From Collybiopsis luxurians FD-317 M1 (taxonomy: Eukaryota; Basidiomycota; Agaricomycetes; Agaricales; Omphalotaceae): a DNA stretch of 64,000 nt. Location: the NCBI GenBank assembly GCA_000827265.1, contig KN834757.1, forward strand, positions 1,051,554 through 1,115,553, in the 5' to 3' direction. The notes below the pieces were generated by a model that worked only from the letters and a program-made list of their open reading frames with translations, made no database searches and was not told the DNA's origin. The first letter of the stretch is position 1. Each line of letters opens with the position of its first letter. Of the stretch, positions 3,401-23,886 are shown in pieces. The translations under genes and the position numbers were made by a program.

Positions 3401-6400
3401 GAGTATAAAATGCGTTAGAAAGTGCTTCAGAAATGGGCCCTTTGTTGGCCTTTTTCGGCCACCAATGAGTACCCTTCCTTTTCTGAAGTTTGGAGAGAAT
3501 ACTCTCCAAGCCACGTAGATATAAGGGTGGGAAAGCTTGAGACAGTAGCCACATATTATATTCAGATTGCAGTGTGCGCCTCCCGTTACCGTCAGGGGGG
3601 TCAAATCGAATACCGCGACGATCACTGGAGACCGCGAAAGCGCTGTTAAGGTGAGCAGGAATCATCGAAAGCACCTCGGGGAGTCGTAATCCGGAAAAAA
3701 GATGATACTGAACACCCGAATCAGAATCTAAGCAGAACGCCAACGAAATTTCGATTCCTGCATCAGCCTTCAGCTGTTCAACCACTGGGTGGAATTCAAC
3801 AGGGACTTGATCCATTGGAACACAGTCTGTGATAACGAGCCATCGCCGTTGCGACGACTCATTTACGGAGTACGAGAATACGGACTTCTCTGGAACAACG
3901 CCGCCCGAGGCTGTTTGAATCTTTGCCGCCGCGACTGACCAGAGCTTCACTGTTTCATCTCCTAGACGTTCTTGAGCAACAATGAGTCTCAGGGAGGTGA
4001 AGAACAGCGCGCTCTGTGCCAGTTCGTGGTAAGACCCCATTATCAATTCTCGGCAACGAGAAAGCGACATTGCATTATTCGATAAGCGAGATGGAGAACC
4101 TGCTGCGGATCCTCTCAAAGGAAGTCGTATCAAGGTCTAGAGAAATGTTTAGGAAAAAGTGAACAAAGGTGGAGTTCCGTTCACATACCCCGCGGTACTC
4201 GTCCATGTCCATCGAGAAACCGTTAATCCCATGCAGGGGAGCCAGATGACCGTCATATGTTCTAAGACTGCCGTCAACAACAACAATAGCATTAATGAAG
4301 TAACATGAATTCACCAACCTGCGGAAATTTTTCAACTTGCGCCAAATGGAACGCCTCATGATTTGGCCACGACGCTTAGGCAGATACGACGCCGAAGGGT
4401 CTAAGATCATAATATACTCTCCGGATACAATGAATGCAACCTGCAAATTGTTCATTATTTTGCACGACGCGCATGCATCGACAGCCGAACTGACCTCTGA
4501 AAAGTGGTAGAAAGATAGAGCTCCCAGGCCGAATTTTCCGATAGTGCCGCTGGAGTCCTGCTTCCCTCCTTCGCCAATGTTCCGGACTCCTCTAAAGTCA
4601 TTGTCGGAAAAGATAGTATCGTTGAAAAGAACTAAGGCTGGACCCTGCTGAAAAACGCTCATTTGTGGACATAAAATACGAGTCGAGTTGCACGGCTTTG
4701 TATCAAGTAGGATCTCGAATTGACATGCCTTTGCATCCGAAGCATTTGCCAAGAACTCGTTCAAGGAGTATTGTATATCGTATTCAACGAGAGTCTTCCT
4801 GATACGCGTGACCAACGACTCAGATATGTCCTCATCGTCGATGTCAAGATCATCTTCATCGTCAAGTCGTAAAGAGCTGAGAGATGGAATGCGCAGTCTC
4901 TCTGCAACCATTCTCGAGATCGCCGGGTGAGCTGCGAAAAGATCGTCTTTCAATGTCACAAAGGTGGAATCACTGCCCAAATCGTTGAAGTAAACTTCAG
5001 ACAGTTTGCGCACCGCAACGTCTTGATCTAGAACGAGAATGCGCTCGCGTTGGTCATCCGAAATTTCCTCCCCTTGCAACGACAACTCCGATAAGAGAAG
5101 TTGCATTTCACTCACAGAATCAGGCTTGGAGAAAACTTCGGCGAGGGTTTCTATGAGGATATCTACAGTTGGCCTGAACGAATCTCAGAAAGACAGTACC
5201 AGAACCAAAGCACCATTGCTCTTACCGTTCACGGCAGCCCATTGCCTTGAGAAAATCCACATAGCTACGCTCTTGAAGTTCCAACGGTATGCAGTGGAAG
5301 GATCTCCCAATCTGAGCATCAGCCAAAAGGGTGTATCGAGTTGACGCAATGCTAGAATGAGACAGAGGGATCCATTCCCGGTCTCGAACCATATCCTGTA
5401 ACACGCAGAGGTTGGCAGATGCTAAAGCCCCCTTAGAATACTGCTTCGCCAGGTACTGAATAAGGCGAAGCAACCGACCAGAACGATGGGAGATATCAGG
5501 CCGGTCAAGGGTAGCTTGAAACTGCTGCTCCAGTATTTCGAATTCAAGGGGGATCCCCCATCCGAGCGCTTTCCGCATGTGGCCAGAGATTGGACGGGCG
5601 ACGATGGAAAGTACCTCGTCAAACAGGAATTGATGTTCGTCAGGCTGTAAATCACGGCATTGCTGCCTAGGTGCCAAAGTACCATGGTCAGTCGGGATCC
5701 ATGACGTCTGGTCATCAGTCTGCAGTTTCTGGGCGTACGAGGGATCCCATTCTTCTGATAACAAATCCAGCAGCCTCCTGGCCTTTTCAAAGCGGACAGC
5801 ATCGGCCGGGGCGTGAGAAATATGTTTGATTCGCTCATCAAGCATCTCGGACGAGAGTTGAGTGCGAAGCAGATTCGCAGATTGCATCATACTCAAATTG
5901 GACGTTTCGGAATATGGATCCGCAGGGAATCGGTCAGTCTCGTCCTCATATAGGCCTGCGATGGAGGAATGGGGGTCTATAATGTCGGCTGGGCAGGCGA
6001 GAATGCGAGAATGAGCGGTAGGAATACATTTTTGATGGCGCAGCTTTTCTCGAGCTTCCTGTGTTAGCAACATTAGCCAGGGAATGATTCGTCGTAGCAG
6101 CAGATCCTGGAGAGATTCCGGCTGATTTGAGATATTTTCGGCAGCAAGATTCAGAATTTCTACCTCTCTGAGGACACTGGATAGAGGTTCGAGAACCTGA
6201 AGCAGCACTGACGAAGTTTTCGAAACGTCCATGAAAGTGATATCTTCGAGAATAGGCAGAGGAAAGTCATCAGCGACGTTGACGAATTGCAAACAACGGC
6301 CTGTGGCGGTATTCAACTCGGTCTTCGGCGAGGGTACGCTGGGAATGCGAGTCGGGAAGATAGGCAGACGACAGAAATCCATTTGCTGTTGACGATTCAG

Positions 6401-8954
6401 TGCAGGCTTGACCTGCAAGCACTGAGTCAGATGGTTCTGAAGTATGAGACGATCCTCATGTTTCGGAATGTCAGGATTGATGAAGCCTACGAGTTCCGGG
6501 ACGTTTTCAATGGATAACGCCATTGCATGAATGGTAAGTGTGCCCGTAGACGTCAGAGAAGGGTGCAGGAATGGAACGTTCGCATCTCTAAGCATTTTCA
6601 ACAGTTCTTCTTGTACAGGAGACGAGAGAAATGCCTTTTTCGATACCTGGCGCAGGGTATCATCGAGCATAGGAAGAAGACAGAAGGACGATGCGACCAC
6701 GAAAAATGGATGAGAATCGGGCAGGCTTAGGCTATCCATCCAATTCCAAAAAGCACAGCACCACGAGACACTGGGCGAAGACGACAAACAGACTCTTCGT
6801 AGATAATTCTCCATAATTTCTGGACTGAAGTCAGTAACATTGAGATAGTCTCGACTGAAGGATTGGGCCAGCTTGTCACGAGCAATGTTCGGTAAAGCGG
6901 AGATGTCGATGATGTTGGCGTCGTAAGAACGAAATAACTCTGCCTCAGCAGCTGTAGCCAAGATGTATCGGGTAGATACTACATTAGGCGCGGAAAGGGA
7001 AATGCGATCACCACCGACAGTTAGAATCAAAGGGAGTTCGACGATGTACGATGGGGAACTTGAGATGAGATATTCCAGAATACGATCCTTATCTGGATTG
7101 CCAAGGTTTCCCAGTTGAGGTATTCGCGGCTAAAGGCGCAATCAGCTTTTGTGGGAACATCGATCATGAAGCGAAATCTTACTCGAAGAAGGGAGTGCAA
7201 ATTGTGGCCATCGAAAGAGTAGAGGCAGCCCTGCTGCTTGGAACGGAAATCGGACCGTTCGAACGCTATAAAGATAGGTGAAGGAGGGGTTACAACAGAA
7301 ACTCCAGCCATCGATACAGCATGGACTAGCTCCCTATCGAAAGATGCTGCAGCTGCTAATGCCGTTTGGCCGGATCCTATGAATGTGCAACGTCCCTGTA
7401 TGAGAGCAGGAAAGACCTCCTCGCAGTTCTCCAAGACGGTGTTCATGACAAGAGCAAGTGAAGCAGGAGCCAGCGATGAATTTTCCAATGGCCAAGCGGA
7501 CCAAATATCTTCTACATGCTCCTCTTTCACAAGGATCCGAAGAAGTAATGACCAGGCCATCGGAAGGAAATCCTCAAATATCATACGATTCCAAAATACA
7601 AGAAGCCTGTCAAGATATCAAGAAGTTCACGTAGCCCACAAAGTAACAAGAACCATTACCTTTCACGCGATTCGTCCTCGATCCCCAGCTCATTTGGATT
7701 TCGGAGGTGCTGACGATCAGAAGTTAGAGCGAAAACTCCGTGGACGTGAAGAGGAAATCCAGTCCAGATAGGAAGCGGTAGAAGAGTGAAAAGCTGTCCT
7801 TTAACATGCTGATGTGACAGAGGGAATGCCAGAGCAATATGTGATGACAACTTGTCCTGTTTAAGACGGTCATCCACATTATAACCAAGACGTTGTGATA
7901 TTTTCGATTGAACCGATGCTTCGTCGTCTACAACGTGAACAATCCGCCATTTGTGAACAACAGAGCGGTCAGAACCGACTGTAGAAACGATATCCAGTCT
8001 GTAAGTCTCGGAACGACAGACGTTCCCGGGCACGAAAGATCTCAATGGAGCAACCTCCGGATTTGATACAGTAACTGTGGCTTTGACAGTCATACTACCG
8101 TCCACTCCGATTTCTCGAAGCTCGATAAACATGACATGCTTCAAAAACAGGAGTGCAACGGGGAGCTCATTCTCTATAAAACCGTGAAATAGACTCCGAA
8201 TGTGATCGATCCTCGTTTCAACTGGCTTGATTCTGCTGCGCTGAGCTTCGGCATGTGTACGCAATGGCAGACGCACGACTGTACCCTCAAACGGGACTTC
8301 AGTGAGTGCTCCGCGAAAAGCGTCAGTTTGGTCTTGGAATCGGTTCATCTCGTCTTTGATTGAAATTGAAACACCGCCTTCAAACTCGTCGAACTCTCCA
8401 TGAGGATCAAAGATGACGAGTTTGTCTCCAGAGAGGATGTGAATGTTGTCGGTTATCTTGGAAGTAATGCTCATTCAGCGAGTGGCACAGCACATGCTTT
8501 GAATACATACGTGATAACAGGCACGAATACCCAACCCATATTTGCCAGTTTTTCTAGAGATAATTCATTATTTCACCCCGACAAAGAGGAGAGGGTCACA
8601 CACGTTTCATCGGCCGATTTGTTTGAACCATGAATAGTCCTGACGGCCTCCCAATCGCTTTCGGTAAACATGCTATCGTTTACAGCAAGAAGAGATGGAC
8701 CCTGGGTGCGTTTGAGGACGTTTTCAATTACGCTCTGGTCTCCATGTTGACGACAATCGAGGATGAAAGTCTGTCATTGAAAACAAGTCAAAAATGGATT
8801 TCATTCAGTTTGTTATTTCATGCACCTGCTTAGTGGCCCCTGCATCATCCGAGTTCTGCAGGATCTCTCGTAAAATAGAATTTCCCGGATAGCTATCAAG
8901 AATCCCACTGATGGCGGATGCCATATCGACCCGTTCACGCCAACTGGAAGGCAT
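419..8954 (-). CDS. Giant sacsin/Hsp90-like ATPase-domain protein with C-terminal BTB-like domain
   Basis: Thirteen exons join in frame (8826-8954, 8604-8770, 8511-8553, 7660-8456, 7183-7606, 5226-7129, 4495-5173, 4319-4440, 4189-4267, 1458-4136, 811-1399, 563-751, 419-516) to 2,632 residues. Residues 1-130 carry a sacsin-type GHKL ATPase: ILREILQNSDDAGATKQ (N-box), LLAVNDSMF, then KTGKYGLGIRACYHITDN. A second, degenerate copy follows near residues 1,250-1,440 (LNEFLANASDAKA, GPALVLFNDTIFSDNDF, GTIGKFGLGALSFYHFSE). The last 200 residues look like a BTB/POZ fold (LLDIELRPD, RLKAHAAYLAAHVPHIEDAL, FGARAFLDIVYTGDI). Sacsin-family proteins are thought to be Hsp90-like co-chaperones, and BTB domains often dimerise or recruit Cul3. 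A chaperone-linked ubiquitin role is therefore inference. Start chosen: ATG 8952-8954, two codons' reach upstream of the ATPase fold. Introns 4441-4494 and 4268-4318 are multiples of three without stops, so their retention is possible. Confidence 0.85.
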
Positions 8955-9412: not shown

Positions 9413-10183
9413 ATGCACAGACTCAATGGCGTTGGTCTCGCCGCCTTTGACCGCCATACTTCTACCACTCAATCCTTTGCTGCTCTTTCATCTACACTCT
9501 CTCAAACCCAAATATCTCACCTTCAGACTCAGCTAACTTCCTTTCGTTCCGCCCTTACAACTTTTGCGACTAATCATAGAGAAGACATTCTTTCCGACCC
9601 CTCTTTTCGCCACAAGTTCACTCAGATGTGCTACAATATTGGCGTGGACCCTTTGGCTGGTCCACGCAAAGGCGGATGGTGGGCAGAGTTATTACCTGGA
9701 CTGGGCGATTGGCAATACGAGCTGGGTGTACAGATTGTCGATGTTTGCGTATCGACGAGGGAGAGGAATGGTGGAATGATTGAATTGTCAGAGCTTGTAC
9801 GGCTTGTACGAAAGCTCCGTGGAGTTTCTGACGGCCAAGCTGGTCAAATAACTGAAGATGATATTATCCGTTCCGTGAAGACTCTCCAGCCTTTAGGGGC
9901 TGGCTATCAGATTATTACCCTCACAGATGGCAGGAAGATGGTTAGGAGTGTGCCAAAAGAACTTGACGAGGATCAGACCGTCATTCTGGCTATAGCACGT
10001 ATGCCTGGCAAGTATGGGAGGGTGACGGAGGAGGATCTCGTGCAGGAGAAGGGATGGACAAGAGAGAGGGCTCGTGGGGCGTTGGAGAATATGCTGATAA
10101 GGGATGGGCTATGCTGGGTCGATGAACAAGATGAGGTCTATGATAGAGTTTATTGGGTTACATCGGCGATGAAATGGGATTAG
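9413..10183 (+). CDS. SNF8: ESCRT-II subunit SNF8 (Vps22/EAP30)
   Basis: A single-exon gene of 256 residues, the usual size for this family. It starts MHRLNGVGLAAFDRH, like the short basic N-terminus of Vps22 proteins. It contains the family core FRHKFTQMCYNIGVDPL, followed by two winged-helix segments (around residues 110-170 and 180-250, with IITLTDGRKMVRSVP and GRVTEEDLVQEKGWTRERA). SNF8 is the central subunit of ESCRT-II, which joins ESCRT-I to ESCRT-III on endosomes during sorting of ubiquitinated cargo into multivesicular bodies. The frame is open a few codons upstream of the ATG, but those codons offer no other ATG. The lack of introns is unusual among its neighbours. Confidence 0.93.
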   Translation: MHRLNGVGLAAFDRHTSTTQSFAALSSTLSQTQISHLQTQLTSFRSALTTFATNHREDILSDPSFRHKFTQMCYNIGVDPLAGPRKGGWWAELLPGLGDWQYELGVQIVDVCVSTRERNGGMIELSELVRLVRKLRGVSDGQAGQITEDDIIRSVKTLQPLGAGYQIITLTDGRKMVRSVPKELDEDQTVILAIARMPGKYGRVTEEDLVQEKGWTRERARGALENMLIRDGLCWVDEQDEVYDRVYWVTSAMKWD

Positions 10184-12874: not shown

Positions 12875-13246
12875 ATGCGCTATTTCTCCTTAGCTAGTGC
12901 TATGGTCGTTTTCTCGATATTACTTTCCTATTGCAGTGCAGTCCCCCTCGATGTATGTGTTTTTTTAACCAAGGTATACGAATACTGATGATCACTTCAT
13001 ACGTCTTAGTCGCGATCCGGGACTGGAGAAGCAGGTGCAGCTGATTGGAGACGTTCCGGCACTGGAGAGGCGGGCGCTGCCGACTGGAGACGATCCGGAA
13101 CTGGAGAGGCAGGTGCCGCCGATTGGAGACGCTCCGGAACTGGAGAAGCAGGTGCCGCTGACTGGAGACGTTCCGGGACTGGAGAAGCAGGTGCCGCTGA
13201 CTGGAGACGTTCCGGAACTGGGGAGGCAGGTGCTGCTGACTGGTAG
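12875..13246 (+). CDS. Secreted kexin-processed repeat-peptide (KEP) precursor, six 13-residue repeats
   Basis: Two exons (12875-12952, 13010-13246) joined by a 57-nt GT-AG intron in phase 0 encode 104 residues. Residues 1-22 form a classic signal peptide (MRYFSLASAMVVFSILLSYC, small residues SA before VPLD). Exon 2 is nothing but six copies of a 13-residue unit, (R/S)RSGTGEAGAADW, ending at a stop directly after the last Trp. Units 2-6 start with Arg-Arg, the signal for Golgi Kex2 protease; unit 1 starts Ser-Arg. Cleavage and trimming would release an acidic peptide of about 11 residues, SGTGEAGAADW. Nine codon positions vary between units and every change is silent, so the peptide is conserved, not just the DNA. 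This architecture is that of fungal KEPs, a class that includes mating pheromones, Ustilago repellent and ustiloxin-type RiPP precursors. The peptide itself matches none I know, so its function is open. No tailoring enzyme (for example UstY-like) was seen beside it. Confidence 0.8.
13010..13243 (+). repeat. Six tandem 39-bp units encoding the peptide repeat
   Basis: Units start at 13010, 13049, 13088, 13127, 13166 and 13205 with no spacers. They differ from each other at third codon positions only, apart from the first codon of unit 1 (Ser instead of Arg), which abuts the splice acceptor. Confidence 0.95.
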
Positions 13247-15001
13247 CGGGATCGTGTCATGCGAGTGGTCCGCCACAGCTAGACCCAAATATTCATCTGG
13301 GCCCTCACAGTCGTTTGCACCAAGAACCTCACATTCATTCGACATCGGCTTGAATTGTTGTATCATCTTTCTCCGTTGACTTCGCTTTCGTTATCGTTCT
13401 GCACGGGAACACATATTTTGAGGGGTTGGATTTTGCTACCCGCATAACTCTGGACCCTTCAAAAGCCCATATCGTTTCGAATCGTGCTTCTTGTTGGGGT
13501 TTGCCGCGAGGAGGTGACGTGGTCAAAGGTCGGGCAGTCTGCAAGAATTTCACATCGCTTCCTTACTGTAATGACTGTTACGACTTCAAGGATTTTTGCT
13601 TTCGTGTATCGTTTGGTGTATCTTTATGGATTAACTTTGTCTTCCACTTGGGATATAAAATGCGTCTTTACTTTTTTAGAACTTAACAAGATGATCTATA
13701 ATCCGCGGTCTTCTCCCCGAAAGTTTCCAATTCCCATTCCATCGGGTTACCCGAATGTGTTATTGTTTTAGTGTTCTGCTATCCCAATCATCAGAGCATC
13801 GTTTTCTGATACTTACCACAACTAGGTACGCTGCTGGTTGGCTTTTTCTCGTGTCTCTATCCACGTATGGTAGGGCATTCCTACATCAGCATTCGAGCCT
13901 CGAGAACTCTCCCTTTGATATTCACGGTCTTGTACATTCACACTTCTATTTGAGCTATTCTCATCCTTCTTTCCCATGCTTCGGCGGGTTCGTGTACTTA
14001 TTCTGACCTTGGCCCGACATGCTTACCCAGGACTACCCAGGACTACCCAAGAGCGCTCAAACTTCCCTGCTTCGATATCCTCGGAAGTGAGGTCTTTTCG
14101 CAAAATATGCCAAAATGCTTTGACAATAGCATGAGATGAGAAGAGAAGCGTTCGGAGCGGCGCCCTTTACGAAACATCGGGTATAGACAATCAATACCGT
14201 TTAGGACTTGTAGATGTATGCTGTGAACATCACTTTCCGAAATAAACAATCTATTGAAGGCTGGCATAGGTTCGAGAAATTGCTGTGCGCGCAATGCGCT
14301 ACTTGTATCGGCCTAACATCGTCTGTCAGAGTAGACGTGAACAAAGGACAGCCAAGGCAAGTCAAGTCATTCGATGATTAATGGTCCGGCGAGAGAGAGG
14401 CCAAGCCGGTGCTCTGGAAGTGAATATGAACGAGGAAAAGCGGGAATTCTTTCTCGTGGTAAGTACCGCTACCTTGGCATCTAGTATGCCGGTGCAACGA
14501 CGAATAAATTCGTCAGTTAATTCAAGCGGTTAAAATTCGAACGACGCAGGGTATGTGAGAGTCACAGTTGATGAATGCTTGCGTGGGTGAGAACTCGCTT
14601 AGAGCGTCGAATATCCTTCTGAGTAACTCACTTGGCGGAATTTGCAGATGTCCCCAAGCACTGTTACTTACCCACCAAATGTCTGCGAGAGATCCGAGGC
14701 GCAAGAGCTATCGTTCGAATGACGTTCGAATGACGCTCAACCTTACCAGTCATCCATGCAACTATAATTTTGGGTATGCTGAATTGCACGGAACGCCTGG
14801 GATAAAGCTATGGGGGGAAGGAAGACGCAGACATGTATAGTAATCCATGGCCGCCTGAGGAATAAGCGTGAGTGATATTCTGTATTCTGACCGCAAAGCT
14901 CACGGGATCCTCTTTCTAGTCGATTTGTGTCGAAGTCAGATTGAGGTTGTTTGAAGTGAGTCAGCACACACGAGCATTTATTGATTTGTATACTTATCGA
15001 G
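13247..15001. other. Intergenic region without recognised gene
   Basis: About 1.75 kb. Small frames at 13755-14006 (+), 14043-14294 (-) and 14743-15090 (-) have no family resemblance, and the last overlaps the 3' end of the serine hydrolase. A short direct repeat, two or three copies of GGACTACCCA, lies at about 14029-14049. Confidence 0.4.
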
Positions 15002-22470: not shown

Positions 22471-23886
22471 CTAAGGCAAGCACTGGCTGTAATACGCGTT
22501 AATCACAGTGCAAGTCGTACCGGCAACGCAAGCCGTAGGTCCTGTCCAACCGATCCCTCCGCTACATGGTGTTCATCAGACAGGAAGTAACAAATCTCGC
22601 GAGACTTACCATTGACCCCATTCAGCTGAGGTTCCCCCCGTACCAGTACCGCCTCCTGTACCAGTGCCGCCTCCCGTACCTGTGCCACCTCCAGTACCCG
22701 TACCACCTCCAGTACCTGTACCACCCCCCGTACCAGTCGACCCGCTATGCAGAGGATAAGTGGCGTTCCAAAATAATACTGCAAGCTACATACGTGATAC
22801 CGAACCACGCCAAATCGATAGTCTCATGAACCGGGACAGTATGACCAACCCCAGCGGCCGAATATCCGACGACTTGAGACCCGTACGTGGTCATCGTGTA
22901 TCCACTTTGCGGATCATTAGCCGTGGTAGTAGTCGCTGTTTGCGATAAACCAAAGACATTGGTCCATTCTTTGATTTCTTCGCCATAGTTGGGGTAGTAG
23001 AGCGTCGTATCGGCTGTTCCGTGCCAGAGCATCATCTTTGGACGTGAGCCTATTAATTAATCAAGACATCAATGCGAGAAGTAGGTTGTTTGGAAAGGCT
23101 GCCTCACCTGTGTAGCCAGAATAAGCAGCTCGGACTTGGTCACCCTATATATTCGTTAGTTCTCTGCCGATTATCCCTGTTAAGAGCGTCCTTACCCATT
23201 GCTGAGCAGTCTTGATGAGTTGACCTTCGGCACACTGCGAGTTCCAGTCGCTTGATCCCGCGAAACATCCAAACGGTACACCAGAGTATGCAGAGGCGGC
23301 CGCGAAAAGTTCTGGGTAAGAACCAGCCATGACATTGGTCATCATAGCTAGGTACTGTAAGTCAGCCGCACATTTTTCAAATAATCAGAGTACCTACCTC
23401 CAGAAGAAGTTCCAGTGACAAATACTTTGCTCGCGTCTACTCCGTAGTGACTAATCTATTGAAAATGTACATTAATGCTTCTTTCAACGCCAGTAAGTTA
23501 CTTACAGCGTAGGTGACCATCGAAGCGATACCTTGCGAATCGCCTCCACCATTGTGACTCAACGTCTGAGGTGTATTGACGTCGAAACAGCCTCCACTTC
23601 TCGGAGAGTTGGGATAGATGACCAAGAATCCGTACTGGTCTGCGAGGTTGGCATACTGGGTGCCCTGGAAGTACGCTTGGGCTGTTCCAGTACAGTAGTG
23701 AATAGCGACAATGAGAGGCAGAGGAGAAGCAAGTTTGGCGGGTTTGTACAGGAACATGCCCACATTATTGGGATTTGCACCGAAAGTACCACTTGCTATC
23801 TGCGTCAAGGGCTGCGTAGCGCCATTGACGAAAGTGGTCCACGATGAGAGGAGCACGGCCAAAGCAGGAAGAGCAAACCTAAGCAT
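22471..23886 (-). CDS. Secreted CE1 acetylxylan/feruloyl esterase with C-terminal CBM1
   Basis: Seven exons (23506-23886, 23398-23455, 23196-23347, 23108-23144, 22794-23049, 22610-22744, 22471-22561) sum to 369 residues. Residues 1-22 are a signal peptide (cleavage near VNGA). The esterase PHB-depolymerase-like domain has [14 protein letters not shown], the nucleophile elbow GTSSG ([10 protein letters not shown] follows), the Asp region [13 protein letters not shown] and the His in [11 protein letters not shown] Gly/Thr linker of about six GTGTGG units leads to a CBM1 ([20 protein letters not shown], ending YYSQCLP) with the conserved Cys and aromatic residues that bind cellulose. The enzyme removes acetyl or feruloyl side groups from xylan outside the cell during plant cell-wall breakdown. 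Exon 4 is only 37 nt. The CBM1 splice (TG/C) restores the first Cys. Confidence 0.92.

Follow-up and report, generated by a model that had tools for sequence, protein, structure and literature searches.

The window analysed here, a stretch of 64,000 nucleotides from Collybiopsis luxurians FD-317 M1, contains a short repetitive locus that raises three questions: whether it is a gene, what it would release, and whether its product is new. In this study, we found that the locus is a real gene encoding a 104-residue precursor of the Kex2-processed repeat protein (KEP) type. The spliced frame, its 57-nt intron and the six units running up to the stop codon, which had been proposed in a first-pass annotation, were all reproduced from the sequence, with the following layout.

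12875-12952, plus strand: exon 1, 26 codons, reading MRYFSLASAMVVFSILLSYCSA and then VPLD
12953-13009, plus strand: predicted phase-0 GT-AG intron of 57 nt, GTATGT...CTTAG
13010-13246, plus strand: exon 2, consisting of six 39-nt units and the stop codon and nothing else
13010-13048, plus strand: unit 1, SR-SGTGEAGAADW, led by a single Arg
13049-13243, plus strand: units 2-6, five times RR-SGTGEAGAADW, 39 nt each
13244-13246, plus strand: stop codon TAG, immediately 3' of the last Trp

When the exons are joined, they translate into 104 aa with a signal-peptide-like start followed by repeats up to the stop, and 13010-13243 falls into six 39-nt units with no remainder. Independently of the gene model, Tandem Repeats Finder reports a 39-bp array of 5.8 copies at 13016-13243. 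The leader is hydrophobic as judged by hydropathy (11-residue Kyte-Doolittle mean up to 2.47), is presumably cleaved after SYCSA according to the -3/-1 rule, and can be aligned with the starts of two relatives described below, a paralogue on contig C17 and the database protein P0001, the latter trimmed to an inner Met. Within the intron, ACTGAT is a plausible candidate branch site. The six 13-residue units had been described as identical, which holds for all the cores and for units 2-6 as a whole, but unit 1 starts with S instead of R. This is the sole amino-acid difference among the six units, and thus SR, which is not a dibasic site, precedes the core of unit 1. KEPs are defined by three or more repeats in tandem, each 8 aa or longer and lying between KR, KK, RK or RR (Umemura 2020, PMC7329392); here, the 11-aa cores of units 2-5 are flanked by RR pairs, and unit 6 lies between RR and the C terminus.

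We consider it highly probable that this is a KEP gene of the KEP 2599 family, and that a linear 11-mer is released from its precursor by Kex2/Kex1-type processing and secreted. The spliced precursor would enter the secretory pathway via its putative N-terminal signal peptide, Golgi kexin (Kex2) would cut after each RR, and both Arg would be trimmed by a Kex1-type carboxypeptidase. Linear SGTGEAGAADW, an acidic peptide of mildly hydrophilic character (pI 4.05, GRAVY -0.47), would then be secreted in five or six copies. Cleavage by Kex2 at the lone Arg that leads unit 1 is less sure. Since Vogt et al., who expressed C. cinerea KEPs in Pichia pastoris, saw products there that appear to arise from cleavage after a single Arg (PMC9769878), unit 1 may be released as the 11-mer too; otherwise, it would leave as VPLDSRSGTGEAGAADW. 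The calculated [M+H]+ values are 1021.42 for SGTGEAGAADW, 1177.52 for its form with an extra Arg, 1688.79 for VPLDSRSGTGEAGAADW, and 1035.44 and 1065.45 for the products of the C17 paralogue. The genome searched comprises 64.3 Mb in 200 contigs, among which the window contig is C9. It contains a kexin-type gene on C23, with Peptidase_S8 and P_proprotein in one frame, and a second P-domain match on C38, the putative functions of both being read from their domains. S10 carboxypeptidases gave 26 matches in the genome, none of them assigned to Kex1. Matches to DPPIV_N (Ste13-type) at three adjacent places on C45 represent one DPPIV-type locus, and no site in the window precursor calls for an enzyme of this type.

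The peptide had been called previously unseen, a claim that does not hold at the family level. KEP 2599 of Lentinula edodes encodes seven copies of SGTGEASAADW, and this peptide was confirmed by mass spectrometry in shiitake fruiting bodies (Vogt et al. 2022, PMC9769878). When the cores alone are compared, 10 of 11 residues are equal; KEP 2599 has seven copies and S at core position 7, whereas the window gene has six copies and G. The shiitake peptide lends support to the earlier proposal that a Kex2-processed repeat precursor releases an acidic 11-mer ending in Asp-Trp. Judged by sequence, the window gene is a new member of this known KEP 2599-type family (SGTGxxxAADW). Homologues of KEP 2599 have been reported in Gymnopus luxurians, G. 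confluens, Rhodocollybia butyracea and an Auriculariales sp. (PMC9769878); one of the homologues in Fig. S10e of that paper may be the window gene itself, and it is possible that the gene is already known in this sense. The occurrence in Lentinula and in the four other taxa just named (PMC9769878), together with P0001 and the C17 paralogue in the same genome, argues against the earlier view of the locus as lineage-specific. The unit had also been said to match no recognised peptide. The exact string SGTGEAGAADW is indeed absent from the main texts of the literature searched (a search of main texts, as distinct from supplements and figures), as are EAGAADW, AADWRR, AADWKR and SGTGDSSAADW, but SGTGEASAADW, found in PMC9769878 alone among these main texts, differs from it by one residue. 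The -AADW end is common to the L. edodes and Pleurotus peptides (PMC9769878). Pleurotus ostreatus KEP 1091723 and P. eryngii KEP 1439342 share this end and the KEP layout with the window gene, and their detected products are MSGVAADW and SGVAADW, with LSGVAADW in P. ostreatus only (PMC9769878). Unlike the window units, however, the Pleurotus KEPs have a shorter core and Ste13 XA/XP dipeptides.

A protein-database search with the window precursor returned two matches, of which one, P0001 (E 1.9e-16; 117 aa, source jgi, from a single contig of 1,011 bases), is a real homologue. From an inner Met, P0001 reads MRVNSVLAGAMVLLSMLVAHSQAAPIE..., followed by three SGTGDSSAADW units with KR, KR and RR after them; its listed start lies 39 residues ahead of this Met and was trimmed for the leader alignment. 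The lead before its first unit is GR, a single Arg as in the window gene (SR) and the C17 paralogue (AR). The swap of RR for KR keeps the Kex2 site, which suggests from the sequence that the dibasic pair between units matters. A search with a three-member profile returned one protein, P0001, already a member. Both searches scored only the candidates sharing most words, 7994 for the sequence and 7990 for the profile. The second match of the sequence search, P0002 (E 2.5e-9), reads as low-complexity sequence rich in DWRR, in which no unit recurs regularly, and was set aside as a probable chance match.

A genome search with the window precursor gave six matches, two on C9, two on C17, and one each on C25 and C72. 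The C17 matches belong to another gene of this type in the genome, longer than the window gene and with 80-81% identity to the window precursor across the repeat.

C17:102600-103201, minus strand: paralogue, whole gene, 12 units
C17:103201-103127 and C17:103070-102600, minus strand: its exons, with a 56-nt phase-0 GT-AG intron between them

This gene encodes MRTYSLLAGAMVLLFAVHSQAAPIE, then AR, then 12 RR-joined units up to the stop, and its intron lies after PIE and before AR, matching the intron place of the window gene. Intron place and phase, unit length and the single-Arg lead are thus common to the two genes. Its cores are AGTSEAGAADW in eight units and AGTSEAGTADW in four. The T-bearing units form two adjacent pairs (units 4-5 and 8-9), which suggests block duplication within the array. 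The C72 match is weak (E 1.0), and the C25 match (E 0.03) reads as an unrelated frame.

The pattern A-D-W followed by two mostly basic codons occurs at 105 places in the genome, compared with 75 in a reversed control, and among the matches listed (100 of 105) it clusters on C9 (at least 5), C17 (at least 11) and C41 (at least 4). The C41 cluster marks a more distant gene.

C41:179034-179524, plus strand: KEP-like gene with ADW-ending cores before KR/RR

Its precursor has a signal-like start, the cores SGAPTADW and GMRTADW, a DPEPQP stretch and an IPSW end, and its splicing is uncertain, with 71 open models. The DPEPQP stretch resembles a Ste13 signature and seems to be one, and the gene resembles alpha-factor-like precursors reported from basidiomycetes. 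Pfam gave nothing above its curated cut-offs for the three precursors; sub-threshold matches to an EMC1 propeller (E 0.018) and a defensin propeptide (E 0.1) were regarded as fortuitous.

The predicted layout of signal peptide, repeats and dibasic sites is also that of dikaritin precursors (PMC9769878), including those of the ustiloxin type, in which UstYa-family enzymes cyclise or oxidise the units into a cyclic product. UstYa exons do exist in this genome. However, the matches to UstYa (PF11807), at least eight in an exon-by-exon search that yields minimum counts, are found on C1, C29, C64 and C89 and none on C9, and no UstYa turned up in the Pfam scan of window frames of at least 110 aa, which covered 40 of 96. 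Furthermore, 22% of the KEP genes in the Umemura survey have UstYa neighbours (PMC7329392), and the detected KEP peptides of C. cinerea, L. edodes and Pleurotus are described as linear and minimally modified (PMC9769878). That no UstYa match was found on C9 fits a linear peptide. A cyclic product from the window gene is unlikely, and we regard a dikaritin-type RiPP as very improbable. Marginally less probable still is a structural or surface peptide with an amyloid-like, hydrophobic-surface role: the KEP layout is the same as in Ustilago Rep1 (PMC9769878), but the 11-mer, with the pI and GRAVY given above, is acidic and mildly hydrophilic and has, by eye, no long hydrophobic stretch. The cyclic RiPP and the surface repellent, both offered as options in the first-pass annotation, found no support in these comparisons.

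The preferred reading, a linear secreted 11-mer, also invites comparison with the alpha-pheromone precursors of ascomycetes, which have a signal peptide, a repeated short linear peptide and Kex2 sites (PMC9769878, PMC6339444), as the window gene is predicted to have. Unlike these, the window gene lacks Ste13 dipeptides after RR and gave no match to a Pfam pheromone family; the residues after the dibasic pair are SG in the window gene and AG in the C17 gene, neither being of the XA/XP kind. Basidiomycete mating pheromones are of the a-type (PMC9769878, PMC6339444).

Codon comparison bears out that nine codon positions (1, 3 and 5-11, counted from 0) vary among the window units, all silently, and in units 2-6 all nine variable sites are third codon positions. 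The synonymous/nonsynonymous check between units that had been proposed gave, in pairwise comparison of 11 core codons across the six units, 62 synonymous and 0 nonsynonymous differences, with ~8.7 synonymous and ~24.3 nonsynonymous sites per unit core. At least ten changes are required in the window core, all silent (0.263 to the 10th, ~1.6e-6, a figure that assumes independent changes and no transition bias). In the C17 gene, the inter-unit core differences are 339 synonymous and 46 nonsynonymous, all 46 in the single A/T codon. Other open frames run through the window repeat, one of 114 aa in sense and two of 124 aa and 84 aa in antisense, the last being open from an ATG (13006-13260, minus strand). 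This 84-aa antisense frame, with QSAAPASPVPERL repeats, is itself nearly invariant at the window locus, because its third positions fall on the third positions of the sense frame. Silent variation is therefore a weaker argument for the strand than it appears, and silence alone leaves the strand unsettled; judged on the sequences, what settles it in favour of sense is the remainder of the gene, with its signal-like exon and intron, together with the homologues. That the true gene lies on the opposite strand, or that the array is a non-coding minisatellite, is scarcely credible: the antisense frame is nearly invariant in C17 as well as in C9, but it varies in E/D in C9 and in L/R and A/V in C17, whereas the sense units vary only in S/R at the unit 1 lead in C9 and in A/R at the unit 1 lead and A/T in the core in C17, the signal-like exon and intron place on the sense strand are common to both genes, the sense precursor has a homologue with an alignable start (P0001), and a near-identical sense-frame peptide was confirmed in shiitake (PMC9769878).

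KEP peptides are common in fungi, but the agaricomycete KEP peptides examined by Vogt et al. yielded no specific function: knockouts of six C. cinerea kep genes were without phenotype, and the synthetic KEP peptides tested lacked antibacterial activity (PMC9769878). The strict conservation of the core points to a product with sequence-specific binding. The window peptide might act as an extracellular signal to the fungus itself, or as a signal to the biotic surroundings of the fungus; we hold the two roles about equally likely, and each falls somewhat short of an even chance. Hormone- or pheromone-like roles have been proposed by Le Marquer et al. for Ste13-bearing basidiomycete KEPs (PMC6339444), the signature of which is absent from the window gene and seemingly present in its C41 relative. 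One genome contains three ADW-ending kinds of KEP, namely SGTGEAGAADW on C9, AGTSEAG(A/T)ADW on C17 and SGAPTADW/GMRTADW on C41. More speculatively, and in our view doubtfully, the -ADW end may be what a receptor recognises in an alpha-factor-like hormone system, with the paralogues as distinct signals through a putative receptor. If true, this would be a mushroom alpha-factor-like secreted hormone system separate from the a-type mating pheromones. A search for the STE2 receptor found none in this genome and none in any of 14 control genomes (14/14) either, so that the absence here is uninformative. When five 11-residue cores are compared, namely those of the window gene, of the C17 gene in its A and T forms, of P0001 and of the published shiitake peptide, G2, T3, A9, D10 and W11 stay the same, and tests of receptors or of activity could begin from these residues. 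With the window locus, a peptide already known from an edible mushroom gains another variant.

The setting of the gene had been described as gene-poor. This is true of its immediate surroundings, where few genes bear a name in the 2.7-3 kb or so to each side (the nearest Pfam-named frames are EAP30/Vps36, ending at 10183, and a beta-lactamase, from 16231), but the wider window contains conserved genes, with named ones including a sacsin-domain gene, an EAP30/Vps36-family gene, a beta-lactamase-type hydrolase, an esterase, chorismate synthase and ribosomal L4. There is no sign of a biosynthetic cluster among the window frames scanned with Pfam; of the 96 frames listed at 110 aa or more, the scan took in 40, and small or split genes may have escaped it. 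At gathering thresholds, Rfam identified three tRNAs in the window. On the minus strand, 4075-8474 contains long frames with two sacsin-domain matches, perhaps representing one large sacsin-like gene. Tandem Repeats Finder also reports an imperfect 18-bp tandem repeat of 5.4 copies at 22637-22737.
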